Shown piece after piece: positions 1,858 through 5,615 of a stretch of 6,950 bases of DNA. The position numbers were made by a program, and so were the translations under genes. The stretch's first letter is position 1, and every line of letters begins with the position of its first letter. Source of the DNA: Elusimicrobiota bacterium (lineage in GTDB: Bacteria; CAYTYR01; UBA6262; DAOVJB01); assembly GCA_030673425.1 (NCBI GenBank), contig DAOVJB010000067.1:1-6950 (forward strand). Reading direction: 5' to 3'. The notes beneath the pieces were generated by a model that saw only the letters and a list, made by a program, of their open reading frames with translations, did no database searches and was not told the DNA's origin.

Positions 1858-3321
1858 ATGAAAATAAGGGTCTATTTGCAAAACCAAAGAGGGGCGCTTT
1901 TCATTTTAATGCTTGCCATTGTCATGGTGTTCCTGGTTGCGGGAATTTTATTTGTTACGTTGGTAACAACTGATGCAAAAATTTCTGCACGCCACAGGCA
2001 TTCAACAGTTGCCTTTTATATTGCGGAGGCAGGGCTTGCCAAGGCGATATTGAGTATGTCAGATAATTTCGGCTTGCAGGATCCTATGATAGGTACACTC
2101 AATGGGGGGATGTTCAGTGTCACATTCACTCCTGAGTCAGGTGGACGTATCTTGCTCACCTCAGTGGGGACATATCGAAATGCTCAGCGTACCATAAAAG
2201 TAAAGGTTCTGCTTGGTTCCTGGCCGATGTTTAAATTCGGTCCAGAAAGACGGAGTTCCACCCCCCAGGCTATTTTAACACCTTTAATTCCGGACTGGAA
2301 CTATGATACTGGTTCACCGATTTACTCTTCACCTGTTATTGAAGGTGGTATAGTATATTTTGGATGTGATGACGGGAATGTCTACGCGCTCAATGCATTG
2401 AGCGGGGCTTTTATAGGAACTTTTCCTACAGGGGGGCGAGTTACTTCTACGCCTGCAATCGATAATGGTGTGCTTTATGTAGGTTCATGGGATACATATA
2501 TGTATGCCATAGATGTCATAACAGGGGAAGAGTTGTGGGCTAAAAATGATCCTATTTCTCCAGATGTCATTCAGTCTTCACCGGGTGTCGTGAACGGCGT
2601 GGTTTATTACGGTGCGGACAACGGGAAAGTGTATGCACTTGACGCCGAGACAGGGGATCTTTTACCGGGATGGCCTTTTAGTACAGGTGGAGCGGTTGTG
2701 GGTTCGCCGGCTATCTACAACGGCACCGTATATATCGGATCACTTGATAGAAAAATGTACGCTCTGGATGCCATAACGGGTCAATTGAAGTCCGGTTGGC
2801 CCTACACAACTGGCGGTGAAATACATTCTACGCCCGGCATTGAGAATGGACGTATATACTTTGGCTCGGATGACAGCTATATGTATGTTCTGAATGAATC
2901 TGGTAGCCGTCTCTCGCGCGTAAAAGCACAGGGGACCCTTCATTCTTCCCCTGCAGTCCTAAACGATTGGATATACTTTGGGTCAGGGCAGAAGAAAGTG
3001 CATGCTTTCAGGTGGACGGGCAGCAAGTTAAAAAATGAATGGAGATACAATACACAGGATGCTGTCTTATCATCACCTGCTTTGTGTAACAATGTAGTTA
3101 TAGCTGGGTGTGAGAATGGCTGGGTCTTTGCCCTTGACCTTTATAGTCGTGGTCTGAGGGATAAGCATGCTACAGACGGGCCTGTACCGTCTTCTCCGGC
3201 AATATTTGCAGACAATATCTATGCTACCTCTACGGACGGACATCTTTATGCATATAGAGGATCTTTCTCGAGTCCAGGACCTGTCAATCTTGTTAATTTT
3301 TCCTGGTATGACAGATATTAA
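1858..3321 (+). CDS. PilX/GspK-like pilin fused to an eight-repeat beta-propeller
   Basis: This 487-residue protein has two parts. Residues 1-118 look like a PilX N-terminal domain: a leader ending QNQRG (Gly12), a hydrophobic helix at about 13-36, and the hallmark YIAEAGLAKAI (54-64). Mature +5 is Leu17, not Glu, as is common for PilX and GspK tip subunits. After a linker, residues 156-469 carry eight PQQ/BamB-type repeats of about 39-43 residues. Each has a core of the form S-S/T-P-x-x-x-x-G-x-(V/I)-Y-x-G-x4-(V/M)-Y-A-(L/I)-(D/N). The key prolines are 159, 199, 242, 284, 326, 365, 407 and 447. Eight repeats suit a closed eight-bladed propeller. No CXXCH haem motif is seen and nothing suggests PQQ catalysis, so a binding or structural role is more likely. 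ATG 1858 has a good ribosome site (GAAGG, 7-nt spacing). A role as a fibre-tip adhesin or cargo-contact subunit is inferred. Confidence 0.85.
   Translation: MKIRVYLQNQRGALFILMLAIVMVFLVAGILFVTLVTTDAKISARHRHSTVAFYIAEAGLAKAILSMSDNFGLQDPMIGTLNGGMFSVTFTPESGGRILLTSVGTYRNAQRTIKVKVLLGSWPMFKFGPERRSSTPQAILTPLIPDWNYDTGSPIYSSPVIEGGIVYFGCDDGNVYALNALSGAFIGTFPTGGRVTSTPAIDNGVLYVGSWDTYMYAIDVITGEELWAKNDPISPDVIQSSPGVVNGVVYYGADNGKVYALDAETGDLLPGWPFSTGGAVVGSPAIYNGTVYIGSLDRKMYALDAITGQLKSGWPYTTGGEIHSTPGIENGRIYFGSDDSYMYVLNESGSRLSRVKAQGTLHSSPAVLNDWIYFGSGQKKVHAFRWTGSKLKNEWRYNTQDAVLSSPALCNNVVIAGCENGWVFALDLYSRGLRDKHATDGPVPSSPAIFADNIYATSTDGHLYAYRGSFSSPGPVNLVNFSWYDRY
2323..3264 (+). repeat. eight degenerate propeller-blade repeats (protein level)
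   Basis: Eight repeats of roughly 117-129 bp encode the propeller blades of the PilX-like protein. They are recognised by the S-S/T-P motif and the Y-A-L/I-D motif at similar offsets. They have diverged at DNA level, so they are old rather than a recent tandem expansion. Hand-counted GC over 2581-2820 is 127 of 240 bases (about 53%), well above neighbouring genes. Confidence 0.75.
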
Positions 3322-3356: not shown

Positions 3357-5027
3357 TTGTCATTCTTAATGAAATCTAAATCTATTTTGGGATTGGACAT
3401 CGGGATTAGTTCAGTTAAAATTATAGAATTAACTCCAGGGGCAAAGGCAGTCTCTCTTGTTAATTTAGGAATTGCCCCGATAGAAATTCCTCCTGATGAT
3501 AAAGAGGAAGATGCCAGGCAAAGAGCTGTTGTTAAAGCAATAAAAAATATTCTTACAACAAAGAAAATTAAGACAAAAAGGGTTATTTCTGGCTTGTTGG
3601 GGCAGGATGTTTTTATACGTATGGTTAAACTGCCTAAATCAGTACTGGAAAAGATGCAAAAAGAGCAGATTATAGGTATGTTAAAAAATGAAATAGAGGC
3701 AGAAATTCCTTTCCCGCTTGAAGAGGCGACAGTAGATTTCTTCTATCACGGAGAAGTTGAGGAAGAAAGGACATTAAAGTATAAAATCACTGTTGTTGTT
3801 GTGCCGCAGAGAATTATACAGGAGAACCTTGAGATTATCCAGAAAGCTGGTCTGCAGCATGTAATTATTGACACCGCGACATTTGCCCTTTGCCGTGCAT
3901 ACAGGAGATTAGTAAAGGAAGAAGACCTGGTTAAGACAGTTGCTTTGCTGGAGGTCAGTGCCAATACCACCGAGCTTAATGTAATTCAGGAGAATAAGCT
4001 GCAGTTAACAAGGACAATCAATTTAGGAGGGTATGGTTTTACTAAAGCAATAAGTGAAGCACTAGATATATCATTTGAGGAAGCAGAAAAAAAGAAAAAA
4101 GAAGAAGATGTGCTTGAGACAATCTCACCACAATTAGAAAAACTGACAGAAGAACTCCGTAGCTCATTTAAGTATTATCAATTACAGATGCACCAGCAAG
4201 TTGAGAAGGTTATACTCTGTGGCGGGGGTGCAAAACTTAAGAATATAGGCGAGTTCTTAAGTCAGAAATTAAGTCTGCCTGTAGAGTGCTTAAATCCCCT
4301 GGAGAATATCCAGTATGATTCTAATCTGTTTTCCAGCGAGTTATTAAATGACCTTTCTCCAAGTCTTGGAGTTTGCATAGGTTTAGCTTTAAGAAATGTT
4401 AAAGAAGAAAAAGCGATAAATTTTCTTCCTTTTGAACTATGGGAACGGCCCTTTTTTATTAAAAGACCGTTTCTGTCAGAAGGTATAGCCTTAAGTTTTA
4501 TAGTAATCACTTTATTTGCAATTTTCAGTTTAAGGCTTGCGGGGTATACAAGGAAGTTTAATAAAACTGATATGGACCTCAGGGCTTTGAATCCTCAGGA
4601 TATATTGGGAAAATTGAAGGAGTTGAGTCAGAAAAAGAAAAGATCGGAAGAAGATCTACAGATTATTAACAAATTAACCGGAGAGAAGTTAGCATATTCA
4701 GAAATTATAAAAAGAGTAGTAGACGGACTTCCCCGTGATGTTTGGCTTAATAATTTATCATTAGCTGTCGAGCAAGAAGTTATAGTAGAACAGATACCTG
4801 CAGATAAGAAGAAAAAAAAGAAGAAACAAAAACCCAAGGTAACAGTAATCGAAAGTTTGAAACTTACTATAAATGGTGCATCTCTTAAGACCCAGGGTGT
4901 GGCTTCCTTTATGCTTTATCTAAAGACTTATGCTGATTTTAAGGATGTTAATTTAATTGATTTGCAGCAGGCTCCTGTAGCAGAAATTTCGGTTATGAGT
5001 TTTGTAGTGGAATGCACTGTGGAATAG
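3357..5027 (+). CDS. PilM-PilN fusion, inner-membrane assembly platform
   Basis: This 556-residue protein joins two usually separate proteins. Residues 1-349 are PilM-like with an actin/FtsA-type fold: phosphate-1 motif LGLDIGISSVKIIEL (11-25), conserved QIIGMLKNEIEAEIPFPLEEA (104-124 in part), adenosine motif VILCGGGAKL (285-294) and closing helix SLGVCIGLALR (336-346). The phosphate-2 position reads EVSANTTEL (199-207), with Glu and Ser where Asp and Gly are usual. Next comes INFLP (354-358), the short motif with which PilN normally docks into PilM, then one membrane helix (about 373-395), a charged coiled region (about 400-445) and a PilN-like periplasmic domain (about 447-556). A run of seven lysines (484-490) sits in a loop of that domain. 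GspL of type II secretion has the same overall order of cytoplasmic actin-like and periplasmic PilN-like parts. The protein would pair with the downstream PilO. TTG start as explained at 3346. Confidence 0.9.
   Translation: MSFLMKSKSILGLDIGISSVKIIELTPGAKAVSLVNLGIAPIEIPPDDKEEDARQRAVVKAIKNILTTKKIKTKRVISGLLGQDVFIRMVKLPKSVLEKMQKEQIIGMLKNEIEAEIPFPLEEATVDFFYHGEVEEERTLKYKITVVVVPQRIIQENLEIIQKAGLQHVIIDTATFALCRAYRRLVKEEDLVKTVALLEVSANTTELNVIQENKLQLTRTINLGGYGFTKAISEALDISFEEAEKKKKEEDVLETISPQLEKLTEELRSSFKYYQLQMHQQVEKVILCGGGAKLKNIGEFLSQKLSLPVECLNPLENIQYDSNLFSSELLNDLSPSLGVCIGLALRNVKEEKAINFLPFELWERPFFIKRPFLSEGIALSFIVITLFAIFSLRLAGYTRKFNKTDMDLRALNPQDILGKLKELSQKKKRSEEDLQIINKLTGEKLAYSEIIKRVVDGLPRDVWLNNLSLAVEQEVIVEQIPADKKKKKKKQKPKVTVIESLKLTINGASLKTQGVASFMLYLKTYADFKDVNLIDLQQAPVAEISVMSFVVECTVE
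4806..4826 (+). other. lysine-coding A-rich tract with slippery heptamer
   Basis: The codons for Lys484-490 include an A8 run (4812-4819). In the reading frame, 4814-4820 reads A AAA AAG, the heptamer used for -1 frameshifting in E. coli dnaX. A -1 shift here would end at TAA 4886-4888, giving a protein of about 510 residues without the end of the PilN domain. No strong upstream ribosome-like stimulator or downstream stem is obvious, so use of the site is unproven. Confidence 0.4.
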
Positions 5028-5060: not shown

Positions 5061-5615
5061 ATGAACTTAGAGAACTTGAATGAAAAGCAGAAATTGATGA
5101 TACTAATAGGAATTGCTGTTTTTGTATTAGCAGGTTCAGGTTTTTTAATCTACACGACGCGCTTAAAAAAGATAAAATTTATGAAAAGCAGGATTTCTTC
5201 CAATCAGGCGAAAATAATAGAGGTCAGCCGGGCTAAGGATAATATAGGTAAATTTGAAGAAGAACTTAAATTGGATGAAGAGAGACTTGAAAAAGTTAAC
5301 GAGAAACTACCTCGCGAAAAAGAACTCCCTGAGTTACTGGGTGAATTGGCCGAGTTAGCAACACCTTTCCCGACCAAGGATTATGTTTCGGTAGTTCCCG
5401 GAGACCTACAAGACACAGGCCCTTATTACAAATTGCCTCTTAATATAAATATGCAGTGTACATACTCAAACCTGCAGGATTATTTAAGACGGCTTGAGAG
5501 TTTGCCCAGATTGGTTAAGATAGAAAGTGTTGAAGTTGCTCCAGGCGGAGAAAATCCTGCTGTGTTAGTTGTGAACTTGGAAATAAGCGTATATTATCTC
5601 AAGCAGGCATCTTGA
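5061..5615 (+). CDS. pilO: PilO-like inner-membrane alignment protein
   Basis: This 184-residue bitopic protein has a short cytoplasmic N-terminus (1-11), a membrane helix (about 12-31), a charged coiled coil (about 35-82) and the PilO signature LPREKELPELLGELAELA (83-100). A ferredoxin-like periplasmic domain follows, with YYKLPLNINMQCTYSNLQDY (122-141) and RLESLPRLVKIESVEV (144-159). In type IV pili, PilO pairs with PilN in the periplasm and links PilM to the secretin. GspM is the counterpart in type II secretion. The length is close to typical PilO. AGGTG at 5052-5056 lies 4 nt before the ATG. The gene follows the PilM-PilN fusion by 33 bp, the order expected for partners. Confidence 0.9.
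   Translation: MNLENLNEKQKLMILIGIAVFVLAGSGFLIYTTRLKKIKFMKSRISSNQAKIIEVSRAKDNIGKFEEELKLDEERLEKVNEKLPREKELPELLGELAELATPFPTKDYVSVVPGDLQDTGPYYKLPLNINMQCTYSNLQDYLRRLESLPRLVKIESVEVAPGGENPAVLVVNLEISVYYLKQAS

Follow-up and report, generated by a model that had tools for sequence, protein, structure and literature searches.

In the type IV pili of Myxococcus, Neisseria and Pseudomonas, four minor pilins carry a propeller on top, that of PilY1, a separate, soluble protein of the PF05567 family with seven blades and a calcium site. PilX and GspK lack Glu5 and are placed at the tip (PMC7541494) and, in published models, PilX lies directly beneath PilY1, whose C-terminal strand is added to the PilX sheet (PMC11046646, PMC13190605). 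Heads can also belong to the pilin chain itself. Pilins with grafted modules are already known, such as PilB and PilC of Streptococcus sanguinis, those surveyed being of the N_methyl type, IPR012902 (PMC8179133); ComZ of Thermus thermophilus is a GspK-like pilin without Glu5 and with a large beta domain, proposed as tip pilin, whose head, a beta-solenoid with a supposed DNA-binding role, lies inserted ahead of its final pilin strand (PMC6561018). The saccharibacterial PilX2 (Nanosynbacter lyticus TM7x, Patescibacteria), a PilX-like minor pilin that has a beta-propeller of seven RCC1-repeat blades in the C-terminal part of the same chain and is without a predicted PilD cleavage, is a proposed tip adhesin, and its deletion lowers host binding (PMC12206443). 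Here we describe a PilX/GspK-type pilin that is conserved in one bacterial phylum and bears an eight-bladed head of the PQQ type; this combination is new, and PilX2 is its published precedent.

The window, i.e. the whole stretch of DNA analysed, is one entire contig of 6,950 b from a MAG of 1.32 Mb (199 contigs, 4.7% contamination). Its phylum, probably UBA6262 ('Candidatus Dobariota'), is uncultured and has genomes of 1.33–1.99 Mb (PMC11382960); no described pili were found for it in the literature. It was sampled here by five genomes, the window genome (G000) and its relatives G001, G002, G003 and G004. The ORF at 1858–3321 is uninterrupted, encodes 487 aa and is the fourth gene of a gspH-pilV-pilW-pilX cassette, all of whose genes lie on the forward strand (+). 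It is preceded by a GspH/FimU-type minor pilin (234–716, +; Glu5 present in G/FTFVE, where the slash marks the cleavage site; N_methyl 28.1 bits; NCBIfam ComGD/GspH-like below the cut-off), with orthologues in all four relatives, by a PilV/GspI-type minor pilin (747–1268, +; Glu5 present in G/FTLVE; N_methyl 32.3 bits; TIGR02523 PilV 41.1 bits, below the cut-off), 46% identical to its G004 orthologue, and by a PilW/GspJ-type minor pilin (1295–1819, +; Glu5 present in G/LSFVE; N_methyl 21.1 bits, borderline; GspJ-like below the cut-off), the orthologues of which were found in relatives. Downstream follow PilM and PilN in one chain (3357–5027, +; TIGR01175 201.8 bits, above the cut-off; PilN 32.2 bits), PilO (5061–5615, +; PF04350 59.4 bits) and a TPR protein truncated where the contig stops (5653–6948, +), assigned by TPR families and by a position matching that in the relatives. 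G004 and G001 have retained the order H-I-J-K-PilMN-PilO-TPR; in G002 and G003, contig ends split it into fragments. The one-chain PilM-PilN also resembles the Amuc_1101 family, at 190.8 bits against a cut-off of 650, thus below it. In G002 (L034, 10315–11349), two near-identical GspG/PilA-like major-pilin genes lie upstream of the cassette, and a glycosyltransferase and three large membrane proteins are encoded between them and the cassette.

The protein starts as a pilin, unlike PilY1 with its type I signal peptide. The prepilin leader MKIRVYLQNQRG (1858–1893, +) has a predicted cleavage site after G12, and R11-G12-A13 is invariant in five relatives; with Gly preceding the cleavage site (MKIRVYLQNQRG/ALFIL) and a hydrophobic alpha-1 following, it is a class III leader. 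Residue 5 of the predicted mature protein is Leu, at variance with the Glu5 of the three pilins encoded upstream, and the relatives are alike in this. The hydrophobic alpha-1 helix (1894–2064, +; modelled as helix 2–69) contains the PilX/GspK motif A-x-Y-x-A-E-x-G and matches PilX_N (PF14341) over residues 12–61, in the window protein with 20.4 bits, below the cut-off of 25.5, and in three relatives above it (33.7, 28.7 and 28.4 bits); neither of the GspK models, the T2SSK domain and NF037980, matched the window protein. The AlphaFold2 model adds a pilin beta-sheet of four strands at residues 77–118 (2086–2211, +), namely 77–81, 84–93, 97–106 and 109–118, with pLDDT of about 55–80.

At the junction GSWPMFKFGPER (2215–2250, +), where W-P-M-F-K and P-E-R are invariant in five relatives, the chain passes into a start motif like that of stand-alone secreted propellers (DWPMFRHN); in fact, one such propeller of the same lineage, in L099, begins with ADWPMFRHN. 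The earlier note had placed a linker at about codons 119–150; instead, the propeller part follows nearly without a linker, from about residue 120 ('GSWPMF...'), though segment 118–141 is unreliable in the model. Residues 144–468 (2287–3261, +) form an eight-bladed beta-propeller of the PQQ/BamB/YxaL type, as indicated by motif repeats, model and fold searches. Eight [STG]-[ST]-P or G-S-P motifs, at residues 157, 197, 240, 282, 324, 363, 405 and 445, are spaced by 39–43 residues, and PQQ_2 (E 4.5e-31) and Beta-prop_ACSF4 (E 1.3e-49) of Pfam match above their cut-offs; the model TIGR03300 of BamB reached 126.6 bits against a cut-off of 285.2, which it therefore does not pass. AlphaFold2 gave the propeller pLDDT values mostly of 80–96 (whole protein: mean pLDDT 77.5, pTM 0.66), and the closest folds were Cake8, YxaL and BamB (VIA-align Z of 48.3, 41 and 37–39, respectively). 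These share the eight-bladed PQQ-type fold (Z 37–48) but are stand-alone, secreted or lipoprotein, and without a pilin. Thus, the PilX-type N-terminus and the eight PQQ/BamB-like repeats that the earlier note had recognised do stand in one intact ORF, and a fold other than a propeller is excluded by the prediction for the full protein.

After the last blade, the chain continues for about 19 residues, mostly missing from the stand-alone propeller of L099. This C-terminal tail, SFSSPGPVNLVNFSWYDRY (3262–3318, +), shows an 'h.h..W.D' motif, and we propose that it supplies the final strand of the pilin and so closes the sheet. Aligned on the Trp, it ends with ...VNLVNFSWYDRY in the window and with ...INLIEESWRDTF in the relatives; other large PilX/GspK-type pilins end similarly (MTSWKEVL, IIYWQEKM, IISWQNKY), and PilY1 C-termini from unrelated genomes look alike (RINIDSWRDF, DVQINMWREI, LKTLLNWREVF, KKKYVYWNEVY). 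The motif was defined on the first pilin tails and only afterwards tested on PilY1. A Trp within the last 12 residues is present in 33/40 large PilX/GspK-type pilins, a set that takes in the orthologues of the fusion protein itself, in none of 10 short ones, one of which may be a false match, in 23/27 PilY1 proteins and in 15/153 control ORFs, which are mechanical. By Fisher tests that ignore kinship, PilY1 differs from the controls with p = 2.8e-15, and large from short pilins with p = 1.9e-6. In the PilY1 proteins (loci L056–L063 and L135–L156), a conserved 'h.h..W[RKQ][ED]'-like ending was observed, common to the large PilX/GspK-type pilins. In the model of the G004 orthologue, the tail is an 11-residue strand (497–507) of low confidence (pLDDT about 40–46), longer than the blade strands and near the pilin strands in length; in that of the window protein, it is disordered (pLDDT about 25). 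Because of this, we rely on the motif and on homology in suggesting that the tail strand pairs with the pilin sheet of its own chain. The topology would be that of ComZ, which the fusion protein also resembles as a pilin without Glu5 and with a large beta domain, the head of the former being a solenoid and that of the latter a propeller.

A broader reading, which we hold as possible but somewhat doubtful, is that PilY1 and the heads of large PilX/GspK-type pilins represent one type of module, in which a head precedes the last pilin strand: short PilX, without this strand, would receive that of PilY1, and the fusion protein would be the one-piece counterpart of PilX-PilY1. If this is true, one-piece and two-protein tips would interconvert by gene fusion or fission. 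The C-terminal motif ties PilY1, the modular GspK/PilX pilins and the fusion protein together by a testable rule, i.e. that the head precedes the last pilin strand, and we suggest it as an annotation aid for head-bearing PilX/GspK-type pilins and PilY1-like partners. The rule may already be described in part in the 2026 preprint of Ellison; according to its citation in PMC13190605, beta-strand complementation is proposed there as a general licence for the assembly of type IV filaments.

The fusion is present in all five genomes of the phylum. The orthologues in G004 and G001 are full-length and 37–40% identical from end to end, also across the junction G[NS]WPMFK; in G002 and G003, the genes are truncated at contig ends, and this junction is again present. 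Since full-length orthologues share the junction in independent genomes, a frame error joining two genes at the linker, which the earlier note had considered, is excluded. When 386 representatives were searched with a pilin-plus-junction profile, a full-length alignment was obtained in the five genomes of the phylum only; this search covers PilX/GspK-type pilins, so that propeller fusions to other pilin types would escape it. In G302 and G192, the matches reach past the junction region, but lead into other heads, and these two were rejected as the same fusion. PilX_N proteins as such are common (107/290 genomes, many in long frames). By Pfam, none of 30 other large PilX/GspK-like proteins has a propeller, and that of the window is the only one of 31. 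A PDB search with a large PilX-like pilin returned no relatives. The survey of modular pilins (PMC8179133) could miss this protein, because it is of the PilX_N and not of the N_methyl type.

The earlier note had seen no pilY1 following the gene, and none was found in the five genomes: PF05567 matched neither the window protein nor any other protein of the five genomes, and a PilY1 profile built here gave in them only weak cross-hits to stand-alone propellers. Fourteen control genomes had no PF05567 match at all; therefore, the 30/386 other genomes with a match at E 1e-6 served as positive control. Among the 97 genomes sampled by both searches, a PilY1 match is also missing in 21 of the 28 other PilX_N-bearing ones, so that its absence is weak evidence; the argument that the genes were fused since pilY1 is lacking was rejected, being without pilY1 the norm in the sample. 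Moreover, the propeller does not belong to the PilY1 family, as judged from PF05567, from the number of blades (eight, not seven) and from calcium, for which the pattern test, the only one applied, found no EF-hand-like D.D.[DN] in the window protein. The structure 3hx6 was not among the 50 structure matches listed, which excludes nothing. At the superfamily level the two propellers are homologous (hhalign probability 92%). Thus, the one-piece PilX-PilY1 that the earlier note had called possible is supported by the single chain, the conserved gene order and the PilY1-like tail motif, but not by the identity of the propeller, which is eight-bladed, of PQQ/BamB/YxaL type and not PF05567. The protein would work like a PilX-PilY1 tip, with four minor pilins and a propeller on top, and is not a PilY1 family member; a fusion of PilX with PilY1 is an analogy. 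Since stand-alone propellers with the WPMF start exist in these genomes, the insertion of a secreted PQQ propeller would be an equally good account of its origin.

On the whole, we consider it probable that the fusion protein is a tip pilin with the propeller inserted before the last strand as a head, which probably binds a ligand. Prepilin peptidase would cleave it after G12 and, judging from gene order and homology, it would top an initiation complex with the three pilins encoded upstream, in the uppermost position, Glu5 being missing from it just as from PilX and GspK. The last strand would fold back and close the sheet of its own chain. This would fix the propeller, which lies between pilin sheet and C-terminal motif, at the fibre tip, and its most likely role there is to bind a ligand, for adhesion or recognition. 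We infer the ligand-binding function by analogy with PilY1 and with the saccharibacterial PilX2; a role as adhesin may be supposed on the same lines. The protein would offer, in a single chain, a tip complex that is hard to study in its two-chain form, PilX-PilY1.

The propeller may also be a plug priming assembly. That it is mainly this, a structural element that primes assembly and stops full retraction without any specific ligand, appears unlikely to us. A priming or cork role has been proposed for the complex of PilY1 and minor pilins (PMC7541494), and the propeller shows roughly the conservation of the pilin module and is not hypervariable: identities of propeller and pilin module are 37.7% and 42.0% between families, and 67.3% and 70.4% within the family. 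The two parts diverge at similar rates, and a fast-evolving adhesin head is therefore not supported. However, PilX/GspK pilins with short heads cap filaments without a propeller, and PilX2, the only studied propeller-bearing minor pilin, aids host binding, its loss altering only the number and length of the filaments (PMC12206443).

We regard it as rather improbable that the filament is a pseudopilus similar to those of type II secretion, in which the propeller would recognise or push secreted substrates, as proposed for the GspK tip. The gene order H-I-J-K is common to T2SS, PilM-PilN in one chain resembles the plan of GspL, PilO also weakly matches GspM, and the major pilin upstream in G002 is best matched by GspG, below the cut-off; all this would fit a pseudopilus. 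By contrast, PilM scores above the cut-off for type IV pili, none of the GspK models matches the window protein, and a recognisable GspK and a GspD-like secretin are encoded elsewhere in the window genome, in a distinct T2SS-like cluster. This cluster (G000:C93, L102, 1–10548) encodes the minor pseudopilins H, I and J, a GspK-like K, a PilM-like L, and GspM-like, GspC-like and GspD-like (secretin) proteins; its GspK-like protein is above the cut-off of T2SSK_1st and just below that of the GspK equivalog.

That the propeller is a PQQ-using enzyme or redox head is very improbable: it does match models of PQQ dehydrogenases, but only in part and far below the NCBIfam cut-offs (TIGR03075, 62 bits against 480), adjacent cysteines, i.e. 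the vicinal disulfide pair, are absent from the window protein (Cys only at 170, 410 and 418), and the nearest folds are designed propellers, YxaL and BamB. An assembly artefact or chimaeric gene, which the fragmented MAG with its contamination might suggest, is already refuted by four other genomes, each assembled separately, in which the fusion recurs beside the same genes, and its probability is negligible.

Besides the tip pilin proposed here, these genomes encode other pilin sets. In the window genome, a further minor-pilin set (G000:C155, L038, 8962–12926) includes PilX-like proteins of 511 and 338 aa, without a Pfam head domain and both with the C-terminal W motif; neither this set nor the GspK-like protein of C93 has a propeller. 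A separate T4aP cluster is present, complete or in part, in the four relatives: in G004, it consists of PilB (partial, at a contig end), PilT, PilC, a 102-aa PilX, PilM and a PilQ-like secretin; portions of it occur in G001, G002 and G003. In the T4aP clusters of G004 (C17; L157, L158) and G001 (C18; L159), the headless 102-aa PilX and a TPR protein are followed by a secreted protein of 1034–1041 aa with Ig-like domains and a FlgD/Por-type C-terminus, possibly a separate tip partner.
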